A DNA stretch of 64,000 nt. Source: Luteibacter jiangsuensis. GTDB taxonomy: Bacteria; Pseudomonadota; Gammaproteobacteria; Xanthomonadales; Rhodanobacteraceae. Location: NCBI RefSeq assembly GCF_030812295.1, contig NZ_JAUSSK010000003.1, forward strand, positions 779,803 through 843,802, in the 5' to 3' direction. Below the pieces are notes generated by a model. It was not told the DNA's origin and made no database searches. It worked only from the letters and a program-made list of their open reading frames with translations. Numbering within the stretch: the stretch's first letter is position 1; each line of letters starts with the position of its first letter. Made by a program: the position numbers and the translations under genes. Of this stretch, positions 3,703-31,717 are shown piece after piece.

Positions 3703-3787
3703 GCCCAGGTGGCGGAATTGGTAGACGCACTACCTTGAGGTGGTAGCGGCTTAGGCTGTGGGGGTTCGAGTCCCCCCTTGGGCACCA
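3703..3787 (+). tRNA. tRNA-Leu (anticodon GAG)
   Basis: 85 bases including an encoded CCA. The acceptor stem GCCCAGG pairs with CTTGGGC (one G-U pair). The anticodon stem CTACC/GGTAG encloses the loop TTGAGGT with anticodon GAG at 3737-3739. A long variable arm and the T-loop GGGTTCGAGTCCC are present, as expected for a class II tRNA. Its 3' end is the attachment site of the element that follows, and the intact copy is kept on the left side. Confidence 0.97.
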
Positions 3788-3972: not shown

Positions 3973-5199
3973 ATGCTTACCGACGCGAAGCTACGTGCGC
4001 TGAAACCAAAGGACAAGCTGTATCGGGTCACTGATGCGGCGGGCCTAGTGGTTGAGGTACCTGTAAGCGGTGGGCTCCGCTGGCGCTTCCGATATCGCTT
4101 TAACGGTATCCCGAAGATGCTGAGCCTGGGGACTTATCCGAGTATTTCTCTGGCCCAGGCCCGGGCACGCCGGGATGCGGCTCGTGCGCAGGTAGCAAAT
4201 GGCATCGATCCAAGCGCTAGCCGTCAGGAGGCGAAGCGGGAACGAGCGTTGGCTCTTGCTCCGGTCCATACTTTCAGGTCGGTAGCCGAGCTTTGGATGG
4301 TCCGACAGGACGTGGCGGAGGCGACGGCGAGCAAGTCACGCTGGATATTCAACACGTTCCTTTATCCAGACCTTGGCGACCGGCCGATAAAGGAAATCAC
4401 CGGCCGTGACCTGCTGGAAACTCTGCGCAAGGTCGAAGGGAAAGACATGCTTGAGACGGCGAAGCGCGCCAAGATCAAGGCAGGGCAGGTCTTCCGTTTT
4501 GCGATCATCGAAGGCTTCGCGGACGTCGATCCCACTACGAGCCTCAGGGGTGCTCTGAAAGCACCTAAGGTGAAGCATCATGCTGCCATCGTGGACCCAC
4601 ACAAGGTCGGCGAGCTATTGCGCGCTATTGATGGCTTCTCGGGTCAATACGTGACCCTCTGTGCCCTCCGATTCGCCCCACTGGTCTTCGTGCGCCCAGG
4701 GGAGCTTCGGCAGGCCGAATGGTCCGAGTTCGATCTCGACGCAGCGGTTTGGCGGATTCCGGGGGGCCGCATGAAGATGAAGGCCGCCCACATCGTGCCG
4801 CTGTCGAAACAGGCTGTTGCGATCCTGCGCGAACTCCAAGGCTTCACCGGTCACGGGCGCTTCGTGTTCCCGAGTATCCGCTCGGCCTCTCGGCCCATGA
4901 GCGAGAACACCATCAACGCAGCGTTACGCCGCCTTGGGTACACGGGCGACGAAATGACGGGTCATGGGTTCCGCAGCTTGGCCGCTACACGTCTGAACGA
5001 AATGGGTTGGAATGCTGACGCCATCGAGCGTCAGTTGGCCCACGCCGAATCGAACAAGGTCCGTGACGCTTACACCCACGCTGCTCAGTACCTCAAGGAG
5101 CGCACGCGGATGATGCAGGCGTGGGCGGACTACCTCGACGCCCTAAAGGCGGGTGGCAAGGTCGTTGCATTCAAGTCGCAGGCGGGGTCTGCGGCGTAA
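3973..5199 (+). CDS. P4-type tyrosine integrase
   Basis: 408 residues. The N-terminal DUF4102 arm-binding domain (about residues 1-85, LTDAKLRALKPKDKLYRVTDAAGL) is followed by a SAM-like core-binding domain and the C-terminal catalytic domain. Catalytic landmarks are the RPGELRQAEW box (first Arg), GHGFRSLAATRLNE (His-x-x-Arg) and the nucleophile Tyr in RDAYTHAAQYLKER. Such enzymes insert and excise islands at tRNA genes, and this gene starts 183 bases from the tRNA-Leu end it would use. The ATG at 3973 directly follows a putative arm site. The gene ends in TAA and has a 7-bp hairpin (TTCTGAC/GTCAGAA) a few bases downstream. Confidence 0.95.
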   Translation: MLTDAKLRALKPKDKLYRVTDAAGLVVEVPVSGGLRWRFRYRFNGIPKMLSLGTYPSISLAQARARRDAARAQVANGIDPSASRQEAKRERALALAPVHTFRSVAELWMVRQDVAEATASKSRWIFNTFLYPDLGDRPIKEITGRDLLETLRKVEGKDMLETAKRAKIKAGQVFRFAIIEGFADVDPTTSLRGALKAPKVKHHAAIVDPHKVGELLRAIDGFSGQYVTLCALRFAPLVFVRPGELRQAEWSEFDLDAAVWRIPGGRMKMKAAHIVPLSKQAVAILRELQGFTGHGRFVFPSIRSASRPMSENTINAALRRLGYTGDEMTGHGFRSLAATRLNEMGWNADAIERQLAHAESNKVRDAYTHAAQYLKERTRMMQAWADYLDALKAGGKVVAFKSQAGSAA

Positions 5200-5289: not shown

Positions 5290-5502
5290 ATGGCTAACAA
5301 CATTGTAGCTGCACGCTTGTCCTCACCAGCGTCCCGTTTGGGGGCCCCTTCGGTCCCGCCCATCGTTTTCGCGGAAACGGCTCAGGAGCAGGAACTACTG
5401 GACCTGTTCCGTCATCTGTCGCCCCGGAACAAGGTGGCAATTCTCGCAGCCGTGCGGACCCTCGCCGACATGTCCGCCCTCGCCACCAGTGCAAAGAACT
5501 GA
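5290..5502 (+). CDS. Small hypothetical protein
   Basis: 70 residues. I do not recognise a family. The N-terminal 35 residues are rich in Ala, Ser and Pro. The C-terminal half forms a likely amphipathic helix pair (QEQELLDLFRHLSPRNKVAIL), a pattern often seen in small phage regulators. The start at 5290 is chosen because an in-frame upstream codon would begin in a hairpin-rich stretch. It sits 10 bases before the S24-like gene, so the two are probably transcribed together and end at the 5894-5921 terminator. Confidence 0.6.
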   Translation: MANNIVAARLSSPASRLGAPSVPPIVFAETAQEQELLDLFRHLSPRNKVAILAAVRTLADMSALATSAKN

Positions 5503-5512
5503 GGACACGGCC

Positions 5513-5872
5513 ATGGGTAACGAACTGCATGCTAGCCGCGCGTTCAATGGCAATCTCGCGGATTTTCTGGATAGCCAGCCCTCAATAAAGCGTCTTCGCG
5601 TTCTCGATGACGCCATGGTCGGTACCATCGCTGCTGGAGACATCATTACCGTCGATATGGGTAACCGCGAGGTCGATAGCGGTCATTGCTATCTCATCCT
5701 TTCGGAGGGAACCGTGCGGGTACGTCGCCTTGCAGTTAGCGACGGGGTGCTAAGCGTTAATGCCGATAGCACGGACAAGACTCTTTACCCTGACATGACC
5801 ATCGCGGGGGATTCCCCTGACTTCGCCGTACTGGGTCGAGTGACCGAGCGGCAGAGTGATAAAGGACTTTAA
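5513..5872 (+). CDS. S24/LexA-fold protein without catalytic residues and without HTH
   Basis: 119 residues that follow the pattern of the C-terminal domain of CI/LexA-type repressors: LDDAMVGTIAAGDIITVD, then HCYLILSEGTVRVRRLAV and a final FAVLGRVTER strand. In active S24 peptidases the first motif reads D-S-M with the nucleophile Ser and the second reads V-K-R-L with the general-base Lys. Here these positions are Ala34 and Arg71, so self-cleavage is not expected. The N-terminal DNA-binding domain is absent. It may act as a dimerisation partner or anti-repressor-like decoy for a full-length repressor; that is inference. It is followed by a strong terminator. Confidence 0.65.
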   Translation: MGNELHASRAFNGNLADFLDSQPSIKRLRVLDDAMVGTIAAGDIITVDMGNREVDSGHCYLILSEGTVRVRRLAVSDGVLSVNADSTDKTLYPDMTIAGDSPDFAVLGRVTERQSDKGL

Positions 5873-6002: not shown

Positions 6003-7847
6003 ATGCCCCGCAAGAGCGCCCCTGGCAGGGCCAAAGCCACCGTTAGGGCGGCTGAATACGTGCGGATGTCTACGGACCAGCAACAGTATTCGACCCAGAA
6101 CCAGTCTGCCGCTATTGCGGCCTATGCCGCTGCTCACGCTATGACTATCGTCAAGAGCTACCGTGACGAGGGTCGAAGCGGCGTGCGGATAAAGGGGCGA
6201 CGCGCCCTTCAAGATCTACTCGCGGACATTCGCAGCGGCGAGAAGGACTACGACGTCGTTCTCGTGTACGACGTTAGCCGATGGGGCCGGTTTCAGAATC
6301 CAGATGAGGCGGCGTACCACGAGTTCGTGTGCAACCTAGGCGGCGTAAGCGTCGTCTACGTGGCGGAGTCGTTCTCCAACGACGGAACGCCATTTTCAGC
6401 TGTACTGAAGGGCCTGAAACGGGTAATGGCTGGCGAATATAGCCGTGAGCTTTCGGCAAAAGTCTATGCTGGACAGTGCAGGCTTATCGGCATGGGATAT
6501 CGGCAAGGCGGCTCAGCTGGTTATGGCTTAAGACGCATGCGACTGGATGCTTTAGGACGACCTCGGGGCATCTTGGAGCATGGACAGAGAAAGGCAGTAA
6601 TCACCGACAGAGTGATCCTCGTGCCTGGTCCCATGGATGAGGTTCGGATAGTGCGCAGGATATTCCGGGAGTTCGCCGCTGGGATGGGCGCAGCTGCGAT
6701 CGCACGCGGACTAAATGCAGAAGCGATCAGTTTCCTTGACGGTAAAAGTTGGAATAACCATCGCATCCGGGCGCTACTGAAGAACGCGAAATATGTTGGA
6801 GACAATGTGTTTGGACGTACCCACGGGAGCTTTCAACTGCCTCGGGTTAATGTGCCCGAGGATGCTTGGGTTATGCGGAAGTCCTCCTTTAAACCCCTCG
6901 TGTCGCGTCAATTGTTCCTCAAGGCCAGAGAGCGCTTTGAGCAGATGGCTAAGAAGAGTGACGAAGACGTGTTGTCTCCCCTTAGAGAAATCCTTGCGAG
7001 GGAAGGGCAGATCAATAGCCGGCTGATCCGGGAAGACCGGCAGGCGGTGTCCGTGCCAACGCTCGTGCGCCGTTTCGGCGGTCTCAGGCACGTATATCGA
7101 CTCATCGGGTTTACGCCCAAAAAGAATCTCGCCTATGCGGACGCCCGGGCCCATTTTCTTGGGGTGCGGGAGAGCACAATGGCCGACGTTAAGGCCATGT
7201 TTGAGCAAGTGGGGTTGCCCGTGACTCGCCAGGGTTGGCGGCTTCAGATCGAGCACGCGTGGTCACTGTCCGTTGCGGTTGTAAGGACATCGCTTTATCA
7301 CGAGACCGAACGCTGGTACGTCAGACAGGTTCCCGACGATGCGGACATTGTGATATTTGTGCGCCTATCGGCCGACGGTTCCACCATCAGAGACTACGTA
7401 TTTTGGCCCGCTGCGATCTACGGGTTCATCCCGGAGAATGTTTCTGGACGAACCTATCCGGCCGTAGCGGCATATACGTCGGGTTCGCTTCTCTCGCTAG
7501 CTCGCTGCCTGGGACGAGGGTCGGTCGACGCACCGCCTCTCGATCACGCAACCGATATTCATGGGCTGGCGCAGAGGTGCAGAAAGCGCGGCCAGTCGAT
7601 TTCAGAAGCACTGATCATCGTCGAAGGTTTTCTGGAACTCGCGAAAGAGGGGGCGAACTTCGGTGCGCTGGAGAATGCTCCGGAAGGCGACGGGGAAACG
7701 ATCCTTCGATACGTATTGCTATCCCGGCAAGGCAGCGTCCAACTAGAAAATGCCGCCCTGGTTTGTTGGCTGGCGAGGCATCACCAAGCGGCATTGACCG
7801 TACTCCAATGGGCCTCGGATGACCTCCTGACGGGAATGGGGGGATGA
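6003..7847 (+). CDS. Large serine recombinase with fused C-terminal accessory domain
   Basis: 614 residues. The N-terminal resolvase domain has the nucleophile Ser23 in YVRMSTDQQ, the GRSG Arg58 and both catalytic arginines of the SRWGR box (Arg93, Arg96). The recombinase (DUF-type zinc-ribbon-less) domain follows, with GYRQGGSAGYGLRRM and NAKYVGDNVFGR. The region after about residue 340 is specific to this pair of proteins, and the last ~100 residues match a separate small gene at 11562-11960. Large serine recombinases perform site-specific integration, excision or inversion. Because a tyrosine integrase already serves the tRNA site, this enzyme may act on an internal or different site. A homologue in opposite orientation lies at 11951-13495. 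The 130 bases upstream carry a GTGAGTAG motif like the arm sites. Confidence 0.9.
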   Translation: MPRKSAPGRAKATVRAAEYVRMSTDQQQYSTQNQSAAIAAYAAAHAMTIVKSYRDEGRSGVRIKGRRALQDLLADIRSGEKDYDVVLVYDVSRWGRFQNPDEAAYHEFVCNLGGVSVVYVAESFSNDGTPFSAVLKGLKRVMAGEYSRELSAKVYAGQCRLIGMGYRQGGSAGYGLRRMRLDALGRPRGILEHGQRKAVITDRVILVPGPMDEVRIVRRIFREFAAGMGAAAIARGLNAEAISFLDGKSWNNHRIRALLKNAKYVGDNVFGRTHGSFQLPRVNVPEDAWVMRKSSFKPLVSRQLFLKARERFEQMAKKSDEDVLSPLREILAREGQINSRLIREDRQAVSVPTLVRRFGGLRHVYRLIGFTPKKNLAYADARAHFLGVRESTMADVKAMFEQVGLPVTRQGWRLQIEHAWSLSVAVVRTSLYHETERWYVRQVPDDADIVIFVRLSADGSTIRDYVFWPAAIYGFIPENVSGRTYPAVAAYTSGSLLSLARCLGRGSVDAPPLDHATDIHGLAQRCRKRGQSISEALIIVEGFLELAKEGANFGALENAPEGDGETILRYVLLSRQGSVQLENAALVCWLARHHQAALTVLQWASDDLLTGMGG

Positions 7848-7960
7848 CACGGCCCGTATGGTCTGTCCCGTTGCAATTCGCACAGCTTGGGCGCATATTG
7901 TGTCCGTCGCCGCAAATTCGGTGACCGGGCGTAGGAACCCGTAAATTACGAGGCGCAACG

Positions 7961-7981
7961 GCGCCTATGGCGCTTTTTTTG
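7961..7981 (+). terminator. Probable terminator after the first serine recombinase
   Basis: A GCGCC/GGCGC hairpin with loop TAT runs into seven T. An alternative fold with AGGCGC at 7951 overlaps it. The rest of the 7848-8123 gap shows no coding frame. Confidence 0.75.
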
Positions 7982-8123
7982 TGTCTGTTGCGACACGCCT
8001 GCTTTCTGGTGGGCGTGCAGGGCAGCCTTCGGGCTGGTCGGTTACCTCGTATTCCGGCATTCCTACCCCTGCACGTCCGCCACCTTACGTGTCGGTCATT
8101 CCTCTTCAGCATCGAGGTGTGCC

Positions 8124-9473: not shown

Positions 9474-9680
9474 ATGCAGTCCCCTGATGCAATCCGCTTC
9501 TCCCGACTCCCCGAGGTCTGCCATCAGACAGGGTTGAGTCGAACCCACATTTACCGCCTTGAGTCCAAGGGTCGGTTTCCCCGTCGAATCCGCTTAACGG
9601 AAGCCACTACCGCCTGGGTCGAATCTGAGATCCAGCAGTGGTGTGCGGAGCGCATCGCCGCGTCACGAGGTGATGCATGA
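9474..9680 (+). CDS. alpA: AlpA-family transcriptional regulator
   Basis: 68 residues, typical for AlpA. The winged HTH pattern is clear: FSRLPEVCHQTGLSRTHIYRLESKGRFPRRIRL, then WVESEIQQWCAERI. AlpA-type proteins of P4-like satellites and cryptic prophages activate or repress integrase, excision and late functions. It starts right after a 9-bp inverted repeat and its stop overlaps the next ATG (ATGA), so it is the first gene of a coupled set alpA - Cys-rich protein - replication protein. Confidence 0.88.
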   Translation: MQSPDAIRFSRLPEVCHQTGLSRTHIYRLESKGRFPRRIRLTEATTAWVESEIQQWCAERIAASRGDA

Positions 9681-10069
9681 ATGGGGCGGTACGTTGTCCC
9701 CGTTTCGACTCGTGCAGCGCTCCCATCTGCCCACTCGACCCAAAATGGCCCACCGCCCAGCACATCCAGGGCGAACGTGTCTGTGGGCTTCTGACCGAAG
9801 TGGTGAAGGTTGGCGGCCAGCAACGTGTGGGGAGCGTCCTGTTCGCCGATCAGTTCGCCACGCTCGTTCGCGAGTGGCCGAAGGTGGAGGCACGATGGGC
9901 AGACATCCGGGCTCGCCTCCGGGCATCGGCCAAGACGGGCTCACGTATTGACCGCGCAATAGCCAATTTCCGTACCCCATCATCGGGAACGCAGGCCATA
10001 CCCCTACCTACCCCCTTCGTCCCCCCTGAATCCTCGATGGTTGGGGCCTTTTCAGGGGGTGCCGAGTGA
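9677..10069 (+). CDS. Small cysteine-containing hypothetical protein
   Basis: 130 residues. The N-terminus has a tight cysteine cluster (CPRFDSCSAPICPLD) and a further Cys in GERVCGLL, which could bind a metal; this opening is common in small proteins of phages and islands, but I know no assigned function. The middle is helical and the end Pro/Ser-rich. It overlaps alpA and the downstream replication gene by 4 bases on each side, so translation is probably coupled. Confidence 0.65.
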   Translation: MNGAVRCPRFDSCSAPICPLDPKWPTAQHIQGERVCGLLTEVVKVGGQQRVGSVLFADQFATLVREWPKVEARWADIRARLRASAKTGSRIDRAIANFRTPSSGTQAIPLPTPFVPPESSMVGAFSGGAE

Positions 10070-10560
10070 CGACAAAAAAGCGTTGGAAAGAAAAGGGGCG
10101 CCGAGATTCCGGGCCTTTTGTCCGAATCCCTCATGAGCTTCAAGACTCTGAGAATTGGAAGGCTTGCGGCGGGTCCGCTCTTAAGCTGCTGTGTGCCCTG
10201 GCCCGTCAATACAACGGCAAGAACAACGGCGATCTGGGAGCGTCAATACGTGTACTAGGCCCCCGTGGCTGGCGCTCATCCGACACGCTGGATAGATCCC
10301 TAAAAGAATTGCTGCATTTTGGGTTCATCTCGCTGACGCGCCAAGGCGGTCGCAACTCGCCCAGCCTCTACGCAATCACATGGCGGCCCATCGACGAGTG
10401 TGGCGGGAAGCTTGATTGCCCAGCTACCAACATTGCGTCGAATGATTGGAAGGAGCCGCGAGGGCCGTTCAAGCGCCTTTCAAAAATCGCATCGTCAAGT
10501 TCGGAATCCGGAGCAACTAGATACGGAATCCGGAGCAGTGCTGTTTCTAGGGCTGCATGA
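10066..10560 (+). CDS. Probable replication initiator (HTH protein)
   Basis: 164 residues. The core (GPFVRIPHELQDSENWKACGGSALKLLCALARQYNGKNNGDLG, then WRSSDTLDRSLKELLHFGFISLTRQGG) has the winged-helix pattern of plasmid and phage replication initiators and related helix-turn-helix proteins. Support for a replication role comes from four copies of CGGAATCCGGAGCA that begin within its 3' end and continue just beyond it, an arrangement like an iteron origin. It is coupled to the upstream Cys-rich gene by an ATGA overlap. The residues after about 130 are encoded by the repeat region and are probably unconstrained as protein. Confidence 0.6.
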   Translation: MTTKKRWKEKGRRDSGPFVRIPHELQDSENWKACGGSALKLLCALARQYNGKNNGDLGASIRVLGPRGWRSSDTLDRSLKELLHFGFISLTRQGGRNSPSLYAITWRPIDECGGKLDCPATNIASNDWKEPRGPFKRLSKIASSSSESGATRYGIRSSAVSRAA

Positions 10561-10938: not shown

Positions 10939-11556
10939 ATGACTATCGGCAGGCGGGCCGATACGGACGAGGAAACAATCGAGCGAGCCGCGCGACTTCT
11001 CGCAGGGGCGCTTGGTTACGGGAGTCCGTGGTTTGCAACGACCATTGACTCCCCTTATGTGCCGGGGACTGACAATGATCCCAAGAACCATGCACTGACG
11101 GTGTGCAGTCCCGGGCTGGTGACGGAGCAGGCTGCATGGAGCGTTGATGGCTCTCGGCACGTGAGGCGACAGCGGGCATGGCGTCAGTCGGCCTACCGAG
11201 TAGCCACACCGGTCTGTAAGCCAAGGCATAGCGTCCTTGCAGCGTTGTCTCTGGCAAAGCTGGACGGTCCCCTTGAATCAGTCCTTTTTCTCTACGTAAC
11301 CGGTGACGTTGGGCGGTTCTGGCCGGACGTGGAGCGGTTCGGGCTGGCATGCGTTAGTGGTGCGTTTGCGTCGGAAGCGCTTAACGACGCCATGGAACGA
11401 ATCATGTTCCGGAGAGCGTCCATTTCTCAGGATGCGAGGGCGAAGACGCTGGGAATTCGTGCGAGTGGCTATCGTGCTGCTACACGTGCCGCCGAGGTCC
11501 GTCTGCGCTCCTGGCTGCTCATGGCATCTAGACGCCTCTTGGTGGCCCTCGGCTAA
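10939..11556 (+). CDS. Hypothetical protein with C-terminal sigma-70-like HTH
   Basis: 205 residues. The C-terminal part (SQDARAKTLGIRASGYRAATRAAEVRLRSWLLMASRRLL) has the look of a region-4-type helix-turn-helix seen in small phage regulators, including some antitermination Q-like proteins; the assignment is tentative. It begins immediately after the previous stop and is the last plus-strand gene before the convergent second recombinase unit. Confidence 0.6.
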   Translation: MTIGRRADTDEETIERAARLLAGALGYGSPWFATTIDSPYVPGTDNDPKNHALTVCSPGLVTEQAAWSVDGSRHVRRQRAWRQSAYRVATPVCKPRHSVLAALSLAKLDGPLESVLFLYVTGDVGRFWPDVERFGLACVSGAFASEALNDAMERIMFRRASISQDARAKTLGIRASGYRAATRAAEVRLRSWLLMASRRLLVALG

Positions 11557-11561
11557 GGAGC

Positions 11562-11960
11562 CTAATCACGCTGTGGCCCGCTACGATCGTTAGCTAGAGG
11601 ACGCAATTCGACCTCTAGCATTCCTTGTAGTGTCCTCAGGTGTCCTGGCTCGTGGCGTGCAAGCCAGTTCACAAGTTCTGCTTGTCTCAGCAGCCTAGCG
11701 ATGCTTCCCCTAAGAATGACAAATTCCAGAATGTGAACCCCTTCGTCCGTCCCGCTGCGGGCTGCCCTAGCGGAATGAACGAGCGCATTCGCGGCCAGCC
11801 CGTGTCGCGCAAGCAAGGCCGCGAATGAAGTGTCGGTTTTGAGATATTCAAGGGCCGCCCCCGCACTGACGATGCAGGCCTCGCACATCGTGACAAAGTT
11901 CGAAAGAGCTATCTGCTCATTACGAAGCCGTGCCGCAGTAGCTAGCTCGGTCAACCACAC
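11562..11960 (-). CDS. Detached C-terminal accessory domain of the second serine recombinase
   Basis: 132 residues starting at GTG 11960, which overlaps the end of the second recombinase by 10 bases. Its C-terminal half (EFVILRGSIARLLRQAELVNWLARHEPGHLRTLQ) resembles the last part of the first recombinase (RYVLLSRQGSVQLENAALVCWLARHHQAALTVLQ), where the same module is fused in frame. So one paralogue carries the module as a domain and the other as a separate coupled gene. Function unknown; a subunit or regulator of recombination is an inference. Confidence 0.65.
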   Translation of the reverse strand: MWLTELATAARLRNEQIALSNFVTMCEACIVSAGAALEYLKTDTSFAALLARHGLAANALVHSARAARSGTDEGVHILEFVILRGSIARLLRQAELVNWLARHEPGHLRTLQGMLEVELRPLANDRSGPQRD

Positions 11961-13495
11961 GCCACTGCACTCATGGCAGACACGATTGCGAGATCGCGGA
12001 GTACATGTAGGGACGTAAAGGTGTGCGCCTCAAGGAGAGGCCCGTTCTCGTTCCGGAGGCTTATCCGCCCAGGGCCGCACGCGATGCGAGGGAGTACCAC
12101 GTAATCAATGGGCACTGCGCCGTCCGGGGTCATCCTGGCGAAGACCACGATATCAGTGTTCATGGGCGTGCGGCGAGATACCCACCGGGGACGGCCTTTG
12201 TACTGAGATGCCTGAAGAATGACTGCGCTTATCGTCCATGCGTCATCAACATGTATTACCCAACCGTCTCTGCGGGTTCGTGAACCTGACTCATCGATGA
12301 TCTCAGTGATAAAAGTCGTCAGGCTTTCTCTCCACCCCTTAAGGCGCAGCCTAGGTACGACGAAATCCAGGTTTCTTTGGGCTTTGTAGCCCACTATCTC
12401 GTAAAGCTCTCGCATGCTCCCAAAGCGGTTCCTGTACTGCGAATACACCACGCCCGGTTCATCGCGAATTTGCTTGATGCTGAGAAAGCCATCCCTCGCC
12501 AAAATCCGCCGTGCGGTCTCCAGCATCTCGCTCGTAGTGGGTTCCTCCCGCTGGCGTGCTAGACGCTCTGCTGCTTTATAGAACAGGCCTGGGGGAACGA
12601 TTCCCTCAAAGGCTGAATCTTTTCGGGCCCATGCCGATGGAGGGTTGTAAACGGTTCGTTGCTTGAGCTTCTTGCTACAGCGGGAGAAAACGTTGTTGCC
12701 AATGTATTTTTCGTTTACGAGTATGCGCCTGATGGCACCATAGACCCAGCGACGACCGAGAAGATTAGGAATTTCATCGGCATTTAGCCGAATCGCTATC
12801 TGACGTAGAGATCTTCCGCCGACGTACTCACGAAATATCCGCCTGACGACAGCCACTTCGTTTGCTGGGCCCGGTACGAGGATAATTCTATCGGTGTAGA
12901 TGCTTTTCCGCTGACCGAACTGGAGTATGCCCTTTCGGGCTCCCTCCGCATCAATCAGCATCCGCCTCATTCCATAACCCGAGTAACCTCCTTGCCGGAA
13001 CCCTAGGCATGTCCCCCTGTATTGTCCCGCATACACTTTTTCAGACAGTTCGCGACTGAATTCGGCGGCCATGGTGCGTTTCAGGCCCTTGAGGATCATC
13101 GCCAGCGGCGAACCGTCATTGTCGAATAGCTCGGCGACGTAGCAGACCTTTATTCCAGCCTGCGTACACAGGAATTCGTAGTAGGCGGCTTCGTCCGAAT
13201 TCTGGAATCGGCCCCAGCTACTGACGTCGTACACAAGGACTACCTTGAACTCTGCATAGCCTGACTGCACGTCTGTAATTAGCCGTTGCAGGGCATCCCT
13301 CCCGCCAATATCCAGGCCGCTTCGTCCCTGATCGAAGTAGCTTCGGACGACACGCATGCCGTGTTCTTGCGCATAGGCTGCTATGGCGATGGATTGATTG
13401 ACCGGGGAGCATATCTGGAGATCCGTGGACATGCGGATATACTCCGCCGCTGGGACGGGCAATCGACCCCTGCCTGTAGGGTCCGGGGCGCTCAT
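11951..13495 (-). CDS. Second large serine recombinase, one catalytic arginine replaced
   Basis: 514 residues, collinear with the first recombinase for its N-terminal domain (same residue numbers through the active site). Nucleophile Ser23 (YIRMSTDLQ), Arg58 (GRSG) and Arg96 are kept. The position that matches Arg68 of gamma-delta resolvase in the DRLGR-type box is Ser93 (VSSWGR, codon AGC at 13217-13219) instead of Arg. That Arg is essential in characterised serine recombinases, so this copy may be inactive or act only in a hetero-complex. It has the FRQGGYSGYGMRRM and NEKYIGNNVFSR blocks of the recombinase domain. It lies convergent to the replication operon. Confidence 0.88.
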   Translation of the reverse strand: MSAPDPTGRGRLPVPAAEYIRMSTDLQICSPVNQSIAIAAYAQEHGMRVVRSYFDQGRSGLDIGGRDALQRLITDVQSGYAEFKVVLVYDVSSWGRFQNSDEAAYYEFLCTQAGIKVCYVAELFDNDGSPLAMILKGLKRTMAAEFSRELSEKVYAGQYRGTCLGFRQGGYSGYGMRRMLIDAEGARKGILQFGQRKSIYTDRIILVPGPANEVAVVRRIFREYVGGRSLRQIAIRLNADEIPNLLGRRWVYGAIRRILVNEKYIGNNVFSRCSKKLKQRTVYNPPSAWARKDSAFEGIVPPGLFYKAAERLARQREEPTTSEMLETARRILARDGFLSIKQIRDEPGVVYSQYRNRFGSMRELYEIVGYKAQRNLDFVVPRLRLKGWRESLTTFITEIIDESGSRTRRDGWVIHVDDAWTISAVILQASQYKGRPRWVSRRTPMNTDIVVFARMTPDGAVPIDYVVLPRIACGPGRISLRNENGPLLEAHTFTSLHVLRDLAIVSAMSAVACG

Positions 13496-13560
13496 GGATG
13501 AGGCCGAAGATTAGATATCTTGGACGCTACGCCGAGCGGCGTCACTTAGCAACGCTCTAG

Positions 13561-13589
13561 GATTCGGGGAGTGGGTAACTCCCCGAATC
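13561..13589. repeat. 11-bp perfect inverted repeat
   Basis: GATTCGGGGAG and CTCCCCGAATC are separated by 7 bases. It lies 8 bases past the lectin gene stop (minus strand) and upstream of the second recombinase. No T tract follows on either strand, so it is either a Rho-independent-like stem without a tail or a binding site. Confidence 0.6.
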
Positions 13590-13596
13590 ACCAGCT

Positions 13597-14148: not shown

Positions 14149-14267
14149 ATATCTTCCCTTTGGAGCCGCGATATGGCGGCGACGTATCCTCCATAATGCA
14201 AGGGGTGCTGTCTGTAGGTTTCCGCCTACAATCGTAAGCGCCGACCTACGTCAGTACTATAAGCACG

Positions 14268-14504
14268 TCACGGCAGGTCGGCTTGGTGGTCTTCGTCCAC
14301 CCAATAAATCGGTTTGTGAGCGGACCATTCGATCTCGCGGGCTAGGGAGTCGTCCATGGGATTGCCCTTGAGGATGGCCTCGACCATGCGCTCTGAGGTT
14401 CCTAGGATGTCAGCCTGCTCACGTAAGCTGCTCACGCCGTCCGCCTCCAATTCGCGCAAAACCGTGGCGAGGTTGGCCCGCCTGATCTCGGAGATACTGG
14501 TCAT
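14268..14504 (-). CDS. Small HTH regulator (Cro/CI-like)
   Basis: 78 residues from the ATG at 14504; an in-frame codon further up would overlap the neighbouring gene more. The order (ANLATVLRELEADGVSSLREQADILGTSERMVEAILKGNPMDDSLAREIEW) fits a lambda-repressor-like fold. It is transcribed away from the virion genes, and the gene upstream ends 10 bases before it. A role as immunity repressor or Cro is inferred from size and place. Confidence 0.7.
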   Translation of the reverse strand: MTSISEIRRANLATVLRELEADGVSSLREQADILGTSERMVEAILKGNPMDDSLAREIEWSAHKPIYWVDEDHQADLP

Positions 14505-14514
14505 GACTGAAGGA

Positions 14515-14796
14515 TCACAAAGGATCAAAGCCGATGGCATCGAGAGCGTGGGCTAAGGCGAGCATTGCCTCGCCATAGTTCTGCCGTGGGGCGGAGCCGG
14601 GCGGGCCGAGCCTGTCCAGCACTCTAGCGCCAGCCAAGACGATATCTTCCAGGCCCGCCGCGTCAGCCTTGGCGATAACTAGCTGTGCACGAAACCTCGC
14701 TTCGTCGAAGTCACGGGCAAGGGCCGCATCGTTCATGGCTGCCGAGTCACGCACGATCGCGGCGATAGTAAGGATGCTCTCGGTAGCAGGTTTCAT
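14515..14796 (-). CDS. Hypothetical helical protein
   Basis: 93 residues, Ala-rich and helical, no family recognised. It is the first gene of the leftward immunity-side unit. Its start at 14796 faces the virion genes across a 193-base divergent region that must contain promoters for both directions. Confidence 0.55.
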   Translation of the reverse strand: MKPATESILTIAAIVRDSAAMNDAALARDFDEARFRAQLVIAKADAAGLEDIVLAGARVLDRLGPPGSAPRQNYGEAMLALAHALDAIGFDPL

Positions 14797-14916
14797 CGGC
14801 TGAGTGTAGCCAGGACGATAAACCAGCGAGTTTATCTTTCATGGGACGGAAATACATCCCGAGGACGACTATATACGCAGGGACCCTTGCCGCCTCAAGG
14901 CCCTACCTCGCCCGAC

Positions 14917-14948
14917 GCCGTGCCGGGTAATGCACGGCTCTTCTTTTG
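14917..14948 (+). terminator. Hairpin with T-rich tail upstream of the virion genes
   Basis: GCCGTGC/GCACGGC with an 8-base loop is followed by TCTTCTTTT, a rightward terminator 41 bases before the first virion gene. Late transcription would have to start downstream of it or read through by antitermination. Confidence 0.65.
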
Positions 14949-14987
14949 CCAGTGGGCGGAACTGGTCTAACTATCATCGAGGCAAAA
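14944..14987 (+). promoter_or_regulatory. Inverted repeat enclosing the leader of the first recoded gene
   Basis: TTTTGCC (14944-14950) is complementary to GGCAAAA (14981-14987). The right arm overlaps the GAGG ribosome-binding site of the 14990 gene, so the stem could hide it. The left arm also overlaps the terminator tail above, so the two folds exclude each other, as in attenuators. Inference from sequence only. Confidence 0.4.
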
Positions 14988-14989
14988 TC

Positions 14990-15970
14990 ATGGGCGGCGG
15001 AAGCTCTCAACCAAAAAACACGACGACCACGACGAAGACCGAACTCCCGCCGTGGCTGGCGAATGCGTATCAGGGCTTCTTCAATTAGACGAATGCCGTC
15101 AATGACAAGCCCTACCAGTCCTATCAGGGCCCCCTGAACGCTAATCCGACCATCGATCAAACCTACGCGCTGGAATTGGCCCGTTCTGGTGCGCAAGGCA
15201 ATCCATAGCAGACGGCCGCGCTCAATCAGCTTCTCGGCGGAAGCCAGAACGTGCAGGCGCAAGCCAGCCCCTATGCTGGTCCGAACCAGTATCTCGATCA
15301 GGTTATCGGTAATTCCAACCGGGACATCACTGATGCCTATCAGCGAGGTGCTGGCGTTGGGTTACCCACGCAGTTCGCCTAGGGTGGAGCCTTTGGTGGC
15401 TCGGCGATGTAGCAGGCGCAGGACTCAAGCAAATACCAGCTTGCACAGACTCTCGCCGACAACACAAGCAGCCTTCGATATCAGGACTACAACGCCCAAG
15501 CTGATCGCTGGCAGCAGGGGTTCCAAAACCAGCTAGCCGCATCTCAGAACAACTCGCAGAACATCCTGGGCGCATCTTCGGGCCTTAATGGTGCGGGTGC
15601 GCTATAGGCGCAGTTCAACGGCCAATACGGCCAGCTTGCGCAGATCCAGCAGGACAAGGCTCAGGGCGACATCGACCAGGCTTACAACGACTGGTACCAG
15701 CAGAAGTTCGGCTACGACCAGCAGCGGCTTGCGAACTACGGCAACGCGCTCAACTCCGTTGCGGGCCAGTTCCAGGGATCGGCTACGTCCGGGCTTAACC
15801 CGGCATATAAGCCTCGCACTGTCGGCGGTGCGGTTGCTGCCGGTGCGGGTGGTGCTGCGACTGGTGGAGCGATTGGTGCCGCCATTGCGGGTGGCTCGGC
15901 GGGTTCCGTCGCCCCAGGTTGGGGCACTGCCATCGGTGCCGCCGCTGGCCTCGCGTCCTACTACCTCTAA
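14990..15970 (+). CDS. Virion (ejection/tail-type) protein with five in-frame TAG codons
   Basis: 327 codons from ATG (GAGG ribosome-binding site 7 bases upstream) to TAA. TAG occurs in frame at 15086, 15206, 15380, 15410 and 15605 (codons 33, 73, 131, 141, 206); no TAA or TGA interrupts it. Codon use and composition are constant across all five. The product opens MGGGSSQPKNTTTTTKTELPP, is rich in Gln, Asn, Tyr and Gly, and ends in an Ala/Gly-rich membrane-active glycine-zipper segment. This is a common plan for small podovirus virion or DNA-ejection proteins. TAG contexts such as NP-TAG-QTAALNQ and SAM-TAG-QAQD fit Gln. A standard-code annotation would break it into fragments or miss it. Confidence 0.85.
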
Positions 15971-15979
15971 GGGGGCCAT

Positions 15980-16273
15980 ATGGAATACCTGATTGTGCTT
16001 ACCCCCGAGAGCGTTGCCGCAAGGGCTCACGTGATGCCGGGCGGAATGCCGTACTGGCTTCCGAGTGACGACGCCGAGACCAGGATCATTTGCCCAACCC
16101 TACGGTGCACGTGGATAGACGGCTCTCTTCCGAGCTTCCTGCGGGTCGAAATGCTTCCGGACCACAACGGCATCCGGAACATTGTGTGGTTGCCGACAAA
16201 TGAGGTCGTCACCATCTTTGAGCCAAACCATAATCCAAGCGTGGCCGTTAACGCGCCCACACTCGTGCACTAA
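15980..16273 (+). CDS. Small hypothetical protein between virion genes
   Basis: 97 residues, no internal TAG, TAA stop. It starts 9 bases after the first recoded gene with GGGGG upstream. Mixed beta-like composition (YLIVLTPESVAARAHVM, LRVEMLPDHNGIRNIVWL); no family recognised. Its place inside the block suggests a virion or assembly role. Confidence 0.65.
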   Translation: MEYLIVLTPESVAARAHVMPGGMPYWLPSDDAETRIICPTLRCTWIDGSLPSFLRVEMLPDHNGIRNIVWLPTNEVVTIFEPNHNPSVAVNAPTLVH

Positions 16274-16285
16274 GGCGGACAACAC

Positions 16286-17704
16286 ATGGCAATTCTCGAT
16301 GGGCTTCTCGGGCCCACCCCAGGCATCACGGACGACGAACGTCGCTAGCTTGCTAATAGCGGACTGCTTAATGCTGGTCTGTCTATCCTGGCTGCTAACA
16401 GTCAACCGGGCGTGACACCAATTTAGGCGATCTCCGGTGGTCTGCTGGGTGGCATCAACTCCGCTCAACAGGGAGCGCGGCAGCTTCAGGACGACAAGTC
16501 TCAACAGCAGCGGATGCAGTTTCAGCAAACGCAAATGGCAGATCAGCAGGAACAAATGCAGCGTCGTCGGGCAATTCAGGATTTGGCTCTGAAACACGTC
16601 ACGCCGGGCCCTGACGGAAAGCCGGTTTTCGACCAGCAGGGATATGTTGCGGAACTGGCGAGCATGGACCCACAGGCCGCGATGGAATTGCACCAGAACG
16701 AACTGCGCAACAAGCTAACGGAACTCCAGACCCAGAAAACGCAAGATGAATTGAACACGAGGGACATCACGCAGGGCTCCAACGTTCTCCATCAGACGCG
16801 GCCTAGTGCTGACGCACCGTGGGTGACTGAAAGCACGGCTCCGCGCTGGCAACGGCCGTCTGGCGGAGGTGGTGAGCAAACGGCCATTGAGCGGAATGCG
16901 GGCTTCCTGATGAAGCAGGGTTATTCCCGTGAGCAGGCGCTCCAAGCTCTCGGCCTGCCTCTCCCTGGAGGTACGACAGACGCACAGGGCTATGCTCCCG
17001 GCACTCCCAACGGCGAGGACTTCCTCAAGACGCTTCCGGCTGACCGTCAGGGCGTTGTCCGTGCAGTGGTGGAAGGCCGCTACCCCGTTCCCACGGGTAA
17101 AGCTGCGACCTCGCCGTGGTGGCAATCTGTCGTACAGGATGCGCAACAGGTCGACCCGACGTTTGAGGCGGGCAGTTATCAGGCACGCGCAGCGGCACGT
17201 AAGGATTTCACGTCAGGGGCTACCGCGAAGAACATCACGGCACTCAACACGGTAGCCCACCATCTCGACCAACTGCTTGAGCAGGGAAAGCAACTCAACA
17301 ATGGTCGTTTCCCGCTCTGGAACAGCATTGCGAACTCGGCAGGCACGCATGTGGGCAAGGATGCAGTGAACAATTACAACCTCAATGCGGACGCTGTTGC
17401 CGACGAACTGGCGAAGGTCTTCGCGGGTAGTAGTGGGGCACTGGCCGACCGCGAACAGATCCGCTCCCGCCTCGATGCCAGCCTGTCACCGACACAGCAG
17501 GAGGGTTTTGGACGCACAGCGGCCAGCTTGATCGAGGGCCGCCTCGCGGGTCTTCAGGCACAGCTTGACCAGGGTTTGGGGTACGGGTCCAAGAACATTC
17601 AACTCGTAAGCCCTGATGCCAACGCGTTGTTCACCAAGTTCAAGGGCGGAGAGAAACCCAAAGCTGCGGCGAACGGTGGCTGGTCTGCACGGAGGGTCGA
17701 CTGA
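16286..17704 (+). CDS. Internal virion/ejection-type protein with two in-frame TAG codons
   Basis: 473 codons from ATG 16286 to TGA 17704. TAG at 16346-16348 (codon 21, after GITDDERR) and 16424-16426 (codon 47, after QPGVTPI) lie in the first tenth; the remaining 426 codons are open. Without decoding, the frame would have to start at an internal Met at 16514 and lose the conserved-looking LANSGLLNAGLSILA and AISGGLLGGINSA segment. The protein has a Gln-rich coiled-coil stretch (residues about 62-95) and a helical C-terminal half, in keeping with long helical ejection proteins of podoviruses. It overlaps the next ATG by one base (TGATG). Confidence 0.82.
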
Positions 17705-19935
17705 TGCCTGTTTTTCACGTTACCGGCCCGGACGGACACACGTACGAAATCAACGCCCCGGAAGGCGCTACCGAACAGGACGCTATCCAGTACGCCCAGG
17801 CGAACCTCGCTCAGCCAAGCGGGGGTGCTCCCGCGCCCACCCAACCGCAGCCTTCTGCCGCTCAGCCGGAACAATCCTTCATGGATAAGTTGGGCGATCA
17901 GCTGACGTACCAGTACGACCAGTTGAACCAATTCGGTAACAACCTCGTTGATCCGATCGCACACCACTTCGCGAGTATCCCGGTTGGCCTCGCCCAGCTT
18001 GGCATGCATGGCGCAAAGGCCGTCGGTGACGTCATAGCCCCCGCAGACAACACGCTCTCCGGCCTGATTACCGGAAAGCAGGATGGGAACTGGATCGACC
18101 GACAAACCGCCGCCTACGACAAGTGGGTGCAGGACCGCGAGAACGCCTACCAGTAGTCGGTGCCGGACAATTACGCGAGCTATGCGGGCGCCACGATTGG
18201 CGAAGTGCTCCCATGGGCAACCGGGCTCGGTGAGGCTAGGGCGCTTGGGCTACTCCCTACCGCCACCAAATTGGGCGGTAAGCTAGGCCTACTTGGTGCT
18301 GAAGGCGCCGTCATGGGCGCGACCCAGCCCGTTACGAACGGCGGGCAGAATTACGCCATTGATAAGGCGATTCAGGTAGGTGCGGGTGCAGCTACGGGGC
18401 CGGTACTTTATGGCCTTGGCGCGGCAAGCAAGGGTATAGGCAACGCTGCCCAACACATCACTAATCCGCAGGCCATCGCCGACGCGAACATTGCCCGCCT
18501 GTATGGGGCCGATGATGCGACGGTGCAGCGATTGGCTAATGCCCCGGCGTTCGTCCCCGGGGAGGTTCCTTCGGCTGCCCAGGTGTTGCAGACGCCAGAG
18601 GCGGTGCAGGCCGAACGGATGCTCCGGAATAACCCTGCATCGGCACCGGCTTTCGTCGCGCAGGACAATTCCAACAACGCAGCGCGCATGGGGCTGTTGC
18701 AGCAGATCGCGGGTACGGACGACGACCTGGCGGCAGCGGTGCAGGCACGCCGTGACGCCACGTCCCCACACTTCAAGGACTATCTGTCGCCCAGCAACCC
18801 GCAGCAGCGTTACAAGACGGCAGTGGGGCTGTTGGGAGACGTGAAAGGGCAGGTATTCCGACCCGACTACGAGGCCCTTCAGCAAGCGAAGTCCATCGCC
18901 TCCAAGGTCGCTCGTGGGACGCTGGACGAGGGGCAGGGTGCCGACCTTCTGAACCAGATCACGGTGAAGACCAAGAAGGCGCAGAAGGTGCTCGACCAGG
19001 CCATCACCGCCATCAATCAGAATATGGTGGACCCCAGCCGGATCGCTAGCCAGCTTGCGGAGCTTACGAAGTCCGGCAATCCCACCGTGGCAGGGGCGGC
19101 CCGCCAGCACCTCGACCTGATCGCCCGAAACGCCGACGAAACCGGAATGGTCCCTGCTCGGGCCCTTGACGATATGCGGCAGAACATAGGGAATATGCTG
19201 TCCGCAAACGCCACTAACGGCGTTGTCGGCTCTCAAGAGGCTGCCCTGTATGGACCGGTCACCGCCAAAATTGTCTCTACTCTCGACCGAGCGATACCGG
19301 GCTATCGTAATAACCTGGCGACGTACGCCAAGCTTTCGCAGCCCATCAACGACATGCAGGCCATCCGAGGGCTACTTGACCCTAACGCTCCGGGTAGCCT
19401 TAACACTGCTGGCGATCCACAGCTTGCAGTCGCTCGTGTAAAGCAGGCCCTACGGTCGGACGACAAGGCCAACTACGGCCTGAGTGACCAGGCACGGGCT
19501 CAGTTGGAGAGCGTACGGGACAGCCTCCAGCGTCGCGGGATCTCCGATCAGAAGATCGCAGCGGCGGGTCCGGGGACGGCAGCTGACCTTCAAGCCCAAG
19601 GGCTGCTCTCAGGGGCCATTTTCGGCAAGAACCTGGGGAACCACGGCGGGTGGCTGGGCCGATCCATCGGTAGCGGCATTGGGGGCCTCCTGGGCTCCGG
19701 CCTGGGCGGCATCGAGGGTGGTCTCCTGGGCTCCAGTCTCGGCCTGGGCGTTAGCGACGCTATCGGAGCAGCCAATTCACGCGTAGCGGCTCGTACAGGG
19801 CAGACGGCGGCAGACGCGGGAGCTACGGCAGAGGCCATCAGGCGTTGGATTGGGAAGCAGCCCAAGGCCCAGCGGCAAGGACTGCTTGACCATTACCTTT
19901 ACGGCCTTCCCGCAGCCACAGCCAACGAGCCCTGA
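17704..19935 (+). CDS. Large internal virion/ejection-type protein with one in-frame TAG codon
   Basis: 744 codons from ATG 17704 to TGA 19935. A single TAG (18154-18156, codon 151) splits it under the standard code; the halves are in the same frame with no gap, and nothing like a start site lies after the TAG. The join reads RENAYQ-TAG-SVPDNYASYAG. The N-terminus (FHVTGPDGHTYEINAPEGAT) is a short domain often seen at the front of phage injection proteins. Ala/Gly-rich hydrophobic stretches lie around 165-250 and 640-690 (glycine-zipper type), with helical regions between. A role in DNA ejection through the envelope is inferred from this plan. Confidence 0.82.
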
Positions 19936-19985
19936 TCGGGTAAAGGGGTCTGGTACTATTTCACTGGGACGGGAGTTGGCTCTAA

Positions 19986-21182
19986 GTGGAACGTAACTCT
20001 ATCAATCCGGCGGTACTTGTCTGGGCGCGGGAATCCGCAGGTCTGGACTTGGCTGAAGCTGCTCGAAAGATCGGGCTGTCCGCGAGCCGTAACCTAAGCC
20101 CTGCTGAGAAACTTGCTCAAATCGAGCAAGGTGCGCGAGCCGTCACCGCCTCGCTACTAGAATGCATGAGCAAGGCGTACCACCGCCCACTCATTGCATT
20201 TTACGCGGCTACGCCGCCCCCAACAGGAGAGCGCGGGGCGGATTTTCGGACCCTGCCTCCTGACCGACGACGTGAAGATGCGCCAACAATTGACGCGCTC
20301 ATCCGCGATATTAAGGCACGTCAAGCCCTTGTCCGAGAGTTAGTTGAAGACGATGAAGGGGTCGAGCCGATCCGCTTCGTCAATTCTCTAACAATGGATA
20401 CGCCCATCAACATAGCTGCGCAGGCCATAGCTGGAGCACTAGGGTTCACTAGCCGAGAGTTCAGGCGTGGACCGGTCGAGGCTGGGTTCGCGTACTTAAG
20501 GGAGTTGGTAGAGCGCACCGGCGTATTCGTGCTGCTAATGGGAAATTTAGGTTCCAGTCACACCAACATTAGCGCGGAGGTCTTCCGAGGCTTTGCTGTC
20601 GCAGATCGGTTTGCTCCGTTCGTGGTTATAAATGACCAAGATGCCAAGGTTTCTTGGTCATTTACGCTTCTGCATGAGTTGGTACATATATGGCTCGGCG
20701 AGTCAGGAATCAGCGGCGGTTCCGCGGACAGTCGAATTGAGCGGTACTGTAACGACGTAGCGAGTGCACTCCTCTTGGATCAGGCGGAGCTTGAGCGTTT
20801 TGTCTGGACTGGCGACGACCAAGCGCTAGAAGCCATAAATCAGATTGCGCACGAGGCAAGGGTCAGCCGAAGTCTTGTTGCCTACCGTCTGTTTCGCTCG
20901 CACGTTGTAACGGAGATAGTTTGGCGCACGCTCACTGACCGTTTTAGGCAGGAATGGCTGGCAGAGCGCGAGCGCCTGAAAGCGATTGAGAGATCAGCAA
21001 GAAAAGAAAAGCCTGGGGGCCCTAGTTATTACGTCGTGAAGCGCCACAAGCTAGGTGATGCGCTGGTCGACCTTGTTCGACGTTCCGTGACTGAAGGTAA
21101 CCTGACACCTTCGAGGGCAGGACAAGTCTTGGGTGTTAGCGCAATGAATGTCCAGCCGCTTATCAGCGGCAAAGCGGCATAG
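19986..21182 (+). CDS. XRE-ImmA/IrrE-type regulator-protease (antitoxin-like)
   Basis: 398 residues. An N-terminal XRE-like HTH (VWARESAGLDLAEAARKIGL) is followed by an ImmA/IrrE metallopeptidase domain with the zinc motif HELVH in SFTLLHELVHIW and a third ligand region ESGISGGSADSRIERYCN. A second HTH-like segment ends the protein (TPSRAGQVLGVSAMNVQPL). Such proteins pair with PIN-like DUF4411 toxins, and one follows here after 8 bases. The gene ends at TAG used as a real stop, unlike the virion genes just upstream. Codon use and higher AT content set it apart; it is probably independently acquired defence or addiction cargo. Confidence 0.88.
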   Translation: MERNSINPAVLVWARESAGLDLAEAARKIGLSASRNLSPAEKLAQIEQGARAVTASLLECMSKAYHRPLIAFYAATPPPTGERGADFRTLPPDRRREDAPTIDALIRDIKARQALVRELVEDDEGVEPIRFVNSLTMDTPINIAAQAIAGALGFTSREFRRGPVEAGFAYLRELVERTGVFVLLMGNLGSSHTNISAEVFRGFAVADRFAPFVVINDQDAKVSWSFTLLHELVHIWLGESGISGGSADSRIERYCNDVASALLLDQAELERFVWTGDDQALEAINQIAHEARVSRSLVAYRLFRSHVVTEIVWRTLTDRFRQEWLAERERLKAIERSARKEKPGGPSYYVVKRHKLGDALVDLVRRSVTEGNLTPSRAGQVLGVSAMNVQPLISGKAA

Positions 21183-21190
21183 GGATTGTG

Positions 21191-21697
21191 ATGCTTTATC
21201 TACTTGACGCGAATGTCCTCATAACGGCGAACAATCAGTACTACGCTCTCGATGCGGTCCCTGAGTTCTGGGACTGGATGCTCCATGTCGCGGGAGCGGG
21301 GCACGTGAAGATGCCTCGGGAGACGTTGGCAGAGTTGAAGGGAGGCAATGCCCAAAAGGATGCTCTCCACGCCTGGGCGGCTAGGCAAGACGTCAGGGAC
21401 GCTTTAGCCCTACGAGAGGACGTAGATGCTGATTTGGTGAGGAAGGTGATTGCTGAGGGATACGCCCCAGATCTACGCGATGACGAGTACGATCTTCTCG
21501 GGCAAGATCCCTTTCTGATCGCCCACGCACTTCGCGCTCCCCAGGACCGTGTCGTAGTCAGCATGGAGGTATCAAAGCCGTCACTCGCTCGGGCTAGGCG
21601 GAAGGTGCCCGATGTGTGTAAAACCTTGAACCTCAGGTGCCGTGACACTTTCCAGTTCCTTCGCGAGATGGGCTTTCGGACCAACTGGAAGACGTAG
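21191..21697 (+). CDS. DUF4411-type PIN-domain toxin
   Basis: 168 residues. The PIN fold shows at the start (YLLDANVLITANNQYY), with further acidic residues in ETLAELKGG and GQDPFLIAHAL. ATG 21191 is preferred over GTG 21188 because AGGG lies 6 bases upstream. PIN domains are usually RNases; in this family the upstream XRE/ImmA-IrrE protein acts as partner or antitoxin. The gene ends in TAG. The pair may stabilise the element or exclude other phages; that is inference. Confidence 0.85.
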   Translation: MLYLLDANVLITANNQYYALDAVPEFWDWMLHVAGAGHVKMPRETLAELKGGNAQKDALHAWAARQDVRDALALREDVDADLVRKVIAEGYAPDLRDDEYDLLGQDPFLIAHALRAPQDRVVVSMEVSKPSLARARRKVPDVCKTLNLRCRDTFQFLREMGFRTNWKT

Positions 21698-21770
21698 TGC
21701 CGGTCGTTGTCGTGATTCGTTTTCCGACGCTATAAAAGAGACGGAAGGTGGGTTTTCTGACACGTAAAAG

Positions 21771-22073: not shown

Positions 22074-22172
22074 GGGCCCTCCCGTTGGTTGGCATGCTGG
22101 TGGTTCGATGGTATCTAAGGGCAGCCAATACCAATGCAGCCATCCGGTTCAATGCCAAGGATGCCGTTCCGC

Positions 22173-24124: not shown

Positions 24125-24171
24125 TGCTGTATATGCGACTCAGATACATTGCAAAAACTTCGGTTGTGGTG

Positions 24172-24187
24172 CCCCCCTTGGCACCAA
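24172..24187 (+). repeat. attR
   Basis: CCCCCCTTGGCACCAA, a copy of the tRNA-Leu 3' end that lacks one G. No tRNA body precedes it. It marks the right boundary of the element. Confidence 0.75.
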
Positions 24188-31703: not shown

Positions 31704-31717
31704 CGGCGGGCTCGTCG

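Follow-up and report, generated by a model that had tools for sequence, protein, structure and literature searches.

Amber codons in the DNA-ejection genes of a satellite-like island of Luteibacter jiangsuensis and their possible dependence on the tRNA of recoded phages

How are virion genes read when they are interrupted repeatedly by amber codons and by no other stop? This question is raised by a 64,000-nucleotide stretch of Luteibacter jiangsuensis DNA (contig NZ_JAUSSK010000003.1, positions 779,803 to 843,802), hereafter the window, in which a 20.4-kb island carries three genes with in-frame TAG that we name ejA, ejB and ejC. We consider it probable that TAG is read here as glutamine, as in related phages that encode a tRNA with a CUA anticodon, and that the island, a satellite-like element devoid of this tRNA, makes the full-length products only when such a phage supplies it. 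The genes concerned are the following (G and L numbers, here and below, are our own handles).

14990..15970, + strand: ejA, DNA-ejection protein, 326 codons, 5 TAG (phrog_4287, E 7.5e-12)
15980..16273, + strand: ejX, small TAG-free gene that separates ejA from ejB (G101 and G178 carry homologues; no PHROG match)
16286..17704, + strand: ejB, likely internal virion or ejection protein, 2 TAG (phages have homologues at this position; ejB itself gave no PHROG match)
17704..19935, + strand: ejC, likely internal virion or ejection protein, 1 TAG (74-77% identity to phages L119, L117 and L110; no PHROG match of its own)

The first-pass annotation had described three consecutive virion genes containing eight TAG codons, and re-reading of the frames bore out every position: codons 33, 73, 131, 141 and 206 of ejA (15086, 15206, 15380, 15410 and 15605), codons 21 and 47 of ejB (16346 and 16424) and the single codon 151 of ejC (18154). 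As had also been reported, none of these genes contains an internal TAA or TGA, and they terminate with TAA, TGA and TGA, respectively. The three TAG genes are real, but the first two are separated by the TAG-free ejX; their virion nature holds for ejA by family, and for ejB and ejC by position and homology. The chance value given at the time, (1/3)^8 or 0.00015, was overstated and we dropped it. CAG is the commonest glutamine codon in these genes (115 CAG versus 32 CAA), 62-71% of one-step nonsense changes yield TAG under a decay model, and the recomputed probability of finding eight TAG out of eight by decay is therefore higher, 0.022-0.065. Taken alone, the eight TAGs of the window are only suggestive, and their weight comes from the relatives. 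Indeed, the ejA genes of eight islands, the window's included, hold 39 TAG and no TAA or TGA, for which the same decay model gives P between 3e-7 and 1e-3, shared ancestry being ignored.

What the TAGs stand for can be read from homologues. Glutamine accounts for 58 of the 99 residues aligned at the eight TAG columns of the window. Aligning the codons of 13 gene families across 10 phages gave 260 TAG columns, at which 856 of 2001 aligned residues are glutamine, 715 of them encoded by CAG; near relatives occur among the ten phages, so that these counts are not independent events. The next residue, alanine, reaches 126, and the glutamine background is 7.4%. CAA columns, used as a control, show 41% glutamine, similar to the TAG columns, which therefore behave like a glutamine codon. 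The CAG-column control shows only 9%, other CAG codons being excluded by design, and G018, a more distant and TAG-free relative, has glutamine at only 22 of 133 TAG columns. This comparison had been proposed as a check of the glutamine reading and it speaks in its favour: the eight TAGs of the window most likely stand for glutamine. The codon also recurs in relatives of the other genes. Searching 197 family genomes with the ejC protein gave 17 with a match, and the long homologues hold 10 TAG in G068, 9 in G053, 1 in G101 and none in G178 and G018. An IMG/VR scan with the portal of G053 yielded 34 loci, 16 of them at 59-99% portal identity, and in all 16 of these phage contigs the portal gene has an in-frame TAG. 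Moreover, the ratio of nonsynonymous to synonymous polymorphism (pN/pS) is low in the segments of ejA that flank the TAGs.

The related phages form a clade of podovirus-like phages from Luteibacter, Dyella and metagenomes, whose late genes are rich in TAG. G494 (Luteibacter) and G053 (Dyella) contain prophages of the type that we consider as helpers, with TAG-rich late genes and early genes that are nearly TAG-free. The G053 prophage is apparently complete: no TAG occurs in its 35 early genes (7605-25004 of a joined stretch), and 57 occur in its 16 late genes (28015-43884 of the joined stretch), which include those for terminase, portal, scaffold, major head protein, ejection and tail fibre. 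Single TAGs are present in each of three small frames (25006-25881), in frame 6208-7239 and in the integrase frame. Another early/late tally (58 TAG in 18471 early codons versus 324 in 31299 late codons) was set aside because of badly called early genes and small training regions. None of the 300 matching phage records reaches 60% identity at the portal (30-36% among the 12 matches listed), and ejA had no match among the phage records.

Upstream of the terminase gene these phages carry a tRNA. In G053 it appears about 0.9 kb upstream as a sub-threshold match to the Rfam tRNA model (23.3 bits), with the anticodon loop CUCUAAA, the anticodon CUA, G73 and an encoded CCA. A model built from eight such tRNAs, all of which (two as IMG/VR copies) lie in the records searched, matched at full length in 21 of 33 virus records, each time with CUA and an encoded GCCA. 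These tRNAs comprise 13 distinct sequences, and in all 13 position 1:72 is unpaired and G73 is present. Glutaminyl-tRNA synthetase favours a weak 1:72 pair, G2-C71, G3-C70, G73 and U35. In all 23 Luteibacter genomes searched, the chromosomal sequence that fits the model best is tRNA-Gln(CTG). We predict that the phage tRNA reads amber, and its acceptor end looks glutamine-like.

Twelve of the 33 virus records gave no match to the model. L117, L120 and L124 are closely related and show no TAG in their called genes; the region is covered in the first two and holds no CUA tRNA, and the third is a 10-kb fragment without the tRNA region. L132 to L134 are distant relatives. L054, L058, L113, L121 and L128 are recoded, and their records begin inside or after the terminase or portal genes. 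The last one, L057, is a 7-kb virus contig in which early genes are followed directly by a partial terminase gene and a portal fragment. Two CUA tRNAs (L047:3408-3494 and L048:8081-8170) have the long variable arm of a class II shape, with the acceptor end and G73 of the short glutamine-like forms. ARAGORN alone was dropped as a detector of suppressor tRNAs, since it missed the smallest forms (G053, G494 and L161), and a candidate at L028:4770-4822 was rejected; by eye it resembles the 3' part of a tRNA-Arg(CCT). In the G053 prophage the CUA tRNA and the late genes flank a frame with one in-frame TAG (L027:7440-7742), in which an HNH-endonuclease-like motif was read by eye.

The island of the window yielded no CUA tRNA with ARAGORN, the tRNA model or a custom scan, and none is present among the 46 tRNAs (43 anticodon types) of its genome. 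Its scanned proteins gave no match to terminase, portal or capsid, and its layout is satellite-like. The earlier view, taken as meaning that the element itself is an amber-recoded phage, is not supported: the recoding phages equipped with a suppressor tRNA are distinct from it and reside in related bacteria. The island extends from the 3' end of tRNA-Leu(gag) to a degenerate copy of the same sequence (3788-24187). In another Luteibacter, G010 (L258), 73 nt that match the window from 24192 on (86%) adjoin tRNA-Leu(gag), as in an empty site; among the 24 loci of this comparison, the right flank was matched by L258 and, weakly, by L264 (43 nt) only. Besides the genes given above, the island comprises the following features.

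3703..3787, + strand: tRNA-Leu(gag), attachment site, found by ARAGORN; last 20 nt (3768-3787) taken as attL, with a degenerate copy at the right end
3973..5199, + strand: tyrosine integrase (PF00589, PF13356, phrog_1; 82-84% identity in four Luteibacter islands, 32% in G068)
5489..5872, + strand: S24 or CI-like repressor (PF00717; phrog_6201 on the longer frame 5276-5872)
6003..7847, + strand: large serine recombinase (phrog_95; relatives in islands)
7906..7980, + strand: isrK RNA of a P4-type immunity region (Rfam RF01394, 56.7 bits; also in the G068 island)
8002..8087, + strand: C4 antisense RNA (Rfam RF01695, 64 bits; also in the G068 island)
9474..9680, + strand: AlpA regulator (PF05930 on frame 9336-9680, the start at 9474 being our choice by eye; five further islands have homologues)
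10066..10560, + strand: replication-type gene with a weak DnaD-like helicase-loader match (phrog_186, E 2e-4; no Pfam match; homologues in G033, G062 and G101)
10939..11556, + strand: conserved island gene (homologues in G033, G062, G068, G101 and G178; no Pfam match)
11951..13495, - strand: second large serine recombinase (PF07508, PF00239)
14515..14796, - strand: conserved island gene (homologues in G033, G062, G101 and G178; no Pfam match)
14843..14875, + strand: promoter-like block GGGACGG...TATATA upstream of ejA, conserved in islands
14880..14938, + strand: structured leader RNA with two nested covarying helices, an invariant hairpin and a possible CCCG/CGGG pseudoknot
19986..21182, + strand: cargo, IrrE-like (M78) protease with regulator similarity (PF06114, phrog_2439, RmrA-like PADLOC match)
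21188..21697, + strand: cargo, DUF4411 protein (PF14367)
24171..24187, + strand: attR, right limit of the island, where the 3' end of tRNA-Leu recurs as a degenerate copy (flank comparison with G010, L258)

The island also contains a small open reading frame for a ricin-type lectin (13597-14148, - strand) and, at the end of and just after the replication-type gene, 30-nt inverted repeats that are 83% complementary (10499-10622), a possible origin. Elsewhere in the same genome, near tRNA-Leu(taa), lies a second, decayed island fragment (G000:C3:616007-616827; L021, L040), with an ejC piece that is 73% identical and has 3 TAG, followed by a piece with a TGA.

The leader and ejA are found together in eight islands, those of the window, G101, G178, G033 and G062 in Luteibacter and those of G068, G094 and G134 in Dyella. 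Of the 233 family genomes, eight contain the exact leader core, always just ahead of ejA, and the phage loci compared hold no copy; neither G053 nor G494 has the leader. One-mismatch matches (G183, G166, G113, two in G045, and G181) and an exact viral match (L281) were dropped, as their loci hold no ejA. In the leader RNA both partners vary in 8 of 20 pairs, a number that none of 500 shuffles reaches. The hairpin and the pseudoknot are invariant, and so uninformative by themselves, and single-sequence folding was discarded as support, being no better than shuffles (z -0.38, 0.97, -1.54 and -0.99). Support for the leader structure comes from covariation only, and an Rfam search with the leader found nothing above a chance-level match. 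A late promoter common to helper and island was rejected, a relaxed scan giving 2 matches in 21 phage sequences versus 1 in the control.

Six of the islands, the window's included, were compared in detail and share the integrase, AlpA and further genes. All six have an AlpA homologue, and a partial one is present in G134. At the Rfam gathering threshold, neither C4 nor isrK was found in the scanned loci of G178 and G062 or in the scanned parts of G101, G033 and G134. The G068 island has an AAA_25/primase-like gene. Seven of the eight islands adjoin a tRNA-Leu gene, and none was found near that of G033. Measured against the window, most shared island genes have diverged at silent sites by about 0.4-0.8, and the ejection genes by 0.5-0.77. 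For the IrrE/DUF4411 cargo the value is 0.16-0.18 between the window and G033, much closer than for the other genes, and this cargo therefore moved separately or more recently. At the corresponding place, the G178 island carries an MqsA-like antitoxin (L037:12203-12721). The ejB of a Dyella marensis island (L042:8282-10294, - strand) matches transglycosylase/endolysin-domain virion families, and the window's ejB has no such match.

Within the trio, ejA is the only gene that is intact in all eight islands, with 3-9 TAG each. In a tree of 30 ejA proteins the island genes are placed among the amber phages, at several points: G134 groups with L054 (support 98/94) and G094 with L048 and L049 (100/100), G068 lies within the G053 group (100/100), G033 and the window join G494 and the L110 group (100/99), and G178, G062 and G101 make up a group of their own (98/96). 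No island gene lies in the TAG-free clade (three rows, 99/99). Unlabelled phage rows lie in between, so that counting labels does not fix the number of transfers. The window's ejA is 72% identical to that of G494 over 260 residues, and its ejC is 77% identical to that of L119. Between the window and four Luteibacter islands, the ratio of nonsynonymous to synonymous divergence (dN/dS) of ejA ranges from 0.07 (G033) to 0.26 (G101), with silent sites near saturation, and with G068 it is 0.24.

The placement of the ambers is also informative. All eight islands have the first TAG of ejA between codons 6 and 33, with a mean of 23.5 versus 67.1 for random placement among glutamine codons (P 0.0002, a value inflated by shared ancestry). 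A phage-by-phage test with 11-13 late genes each, some cut by locus ends, gave an early first TAG at P < 0.01 in seven of eight phages, L047 being not significant (P 0.055 and 0.069). The CAA control was not early in any of the eight (P at least 0.06), and the early TAG is therefore not a general 5' codon bias. When one phage was drawn per gene family, the median P was 0.007 (range 0.000-0.120). Early TAGs are as expected of a translational lock.

These comparisons suggest the following scenario. The islands would be satellites mobilised by amber podovirus-like phages such as G494. Infection by the helper, or its induction, would turn on the conserved leader promoter, and the helper would supply the CUA tRNA, charged with glutamine by the host enzyme. 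The ejection proteins made from the island may then load into helper capsids and allow the delivery of packaged island DNA. The ambers would thereby form a translational lock, opened only by a helper with the right code. More generally, we lean slightly towards the existence of code-locked satellites, whose virion genes are written in the alternative code of the helper, which leave the decoding tRNA to the helper and for which the code is the helper-recognition signal. Their signature would, on balance, be early ambers under selection, one conserved leader and ejA genes captured repeatedly from various amber phages.

Several observations weigh against this scenario. The satellite reading comes from sequence, with neither induction nor packaging nor a particle observed. 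No genome seen combines an island with a complete amber prophage, and a portal search of 398 genomes of the order matched G053, G086 and G255 only. Genes for packaging redirection (terS, ppi, psu and sid) were not recognised among the window proteins scanned, several of which have no family, and sid had no separate search. The gene ejB is split in G101, and ejB/ejC are broken or not recognised in G033, G062, G134 and G094, which brings the islands affected to five of eight; for the broken ejB of the pair G101-G068, dN/dS is 0.98 over 88 codons. The divergence of ejA within islands cannot be cleanly separated from that within phages, because ejA appears to move between them, and its predicted structure is poor (pLDDT 41, pTM 0.26). 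On the side of the phages, the promoter-like block was not found in the loci compared, the CUA tRNA of L162 (one of the 13 distinct forms) has no G3-C70 pair, and L057 is recoded without a CUA tRNA although it runs upstream of its partial terminase gene; this contig looks rearranged.

The alternative that survives best, although we hold it to be unlikely, is that the island is the remnant of an amber-recoded prophage, which lost its head genes and suppressor tRNA and whose inherited TAGs no longer matter. The closeness of its ejA and ejC to those of recoded phages fits this idea, as do the damage to ejB and ejC in five islands and the lack of a CUA tRNA among the 46 tRNAs of the host. A remnant accounts less well for the presence of AlpA and the isrK/C4 RNAs, for an island-only promoter and a covarying leader common to eight islands of Luteibacter and Dyella, or for the integrase, AlpA and further genes common to the six islands compared in detail. 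Moreover, ejA is intact at low dN/dS in every island, and a single conserved leader precedes ejA genes of different phage lineages. Quite improbable, in our opinion, is a low-level expression independent of any helper, through natural readthrough or an unrecognised suppressor, in which the products would have a different role, for instance to interfere with infecting phages. The persistence of ejA alone among the trio and a cargo resembling toxin-antitoxin or defence genes (IrrE/DUF4411 for the window, MqsA-like for G178) are compatible with such a role, but chance readthrough of five TAGs in ejA would be very inefficient, and neither the island loci nor the host yielded a CUA tRNA with the tRNA model, the custom scan or ARAGORN. 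Finally, ordinary pseudogenes with random nonsense mutations are hardly credible: eight TAG out of eight could arise in this way by itself (P 0.02-0.07, CAG being common), but the homologues already contradict it, with glutamine at 58 of 99 positions, 39 TAG against no TAA or TGA in the ejA of eight islands, portal TAGs in all 16 phage contigs and low pN/pS on both sides of the TAGs.

Dependence of the island on the CUA tRNA of a recoded phage remains our preferred reading. A literature search, mostly without subscription papers, found no amber-recoded Luteibacter or Dyella phage and no satellite dependent on the suppressor tRNA of its helper. The combination described here, captured genes in a code that the island cannot read itself, was not found in the literature searched. 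If true, it would mean that one mobile element depends on the genetic code of another. Small prophages in isolate genomes of Luteibacter and Dyella would moreover offer a setting for testing late-gene recoding in temperate phages; the recoded phages of PMC11210395 and PMC10879173 are mostly gut phages. The early TAGs of late genes would be the statistical signature of an amber gate against premature late expression, a gate already proposed for recoded phages in work cited in PMC11210395 and PMC13059738, the latter citing Borges 2022 on the timing of late genes.

Phages of genetic code 15, such as Crassvirales, use TAG for glutamine in standard-code hosts, and many have a CUA tRNA (PMC11210395, PMC9523058, PMC10879173); a Sup-CTA tRNA is reported for 375 of 715 table-15 phages, about half being without (PMC11210395). 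Unlike these, the helper-type phages considered here are podovirus-like prophages of about 40 kb in Rhodanobacteraceae, and, unlike code-15 phages with their own tRNA, the window element has recoded genes without a CUA tRNA and, among its scanned proteins, no match to terminase, portal or capsid. The island resembles the phage-inducible chromosomal islands of Gram-negative bacteria, as portrayed in PMC10111431, in its integrase at an attachment site with defined limits, AlpA, C4/isrK (in some members) and late genes captured from prophages; those islands also have a replication zone, for which the window offers a weak DnaD-like match. AlpA marks 203 of 203 fis satellites versus 1 of 169 prophage models in that work. 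It differs from them in that the captured genes are DNA-ejection genes in an alternative code, preceded by a conserved leader RNA, in that no primase, terS or ppi was recognised in the window, in the position of AlpA after the immunity RNAs and in its two serine recombinases. With P4-like satellites (PMC8628076) it shares the integrase, AlpA, C4/isrK-type RNAs and the lack of a capsid of its own. Unlike those satellites, the window proteins scanned have no Pfam match to psu, delta, epsilon or alpha; sid, detected in that paper with its own profile, had no separate search here. Finally, the phage-inducible chromosomal minimalist islands (PICMI) of marine Vibrionaceae are likewise small islands without capsid-remodelling genes (PMC10803314), but they integrate at fis, whereas the islands described here lie mostly next to tRNA-Leu (seven of eight) and carry ejection genes.

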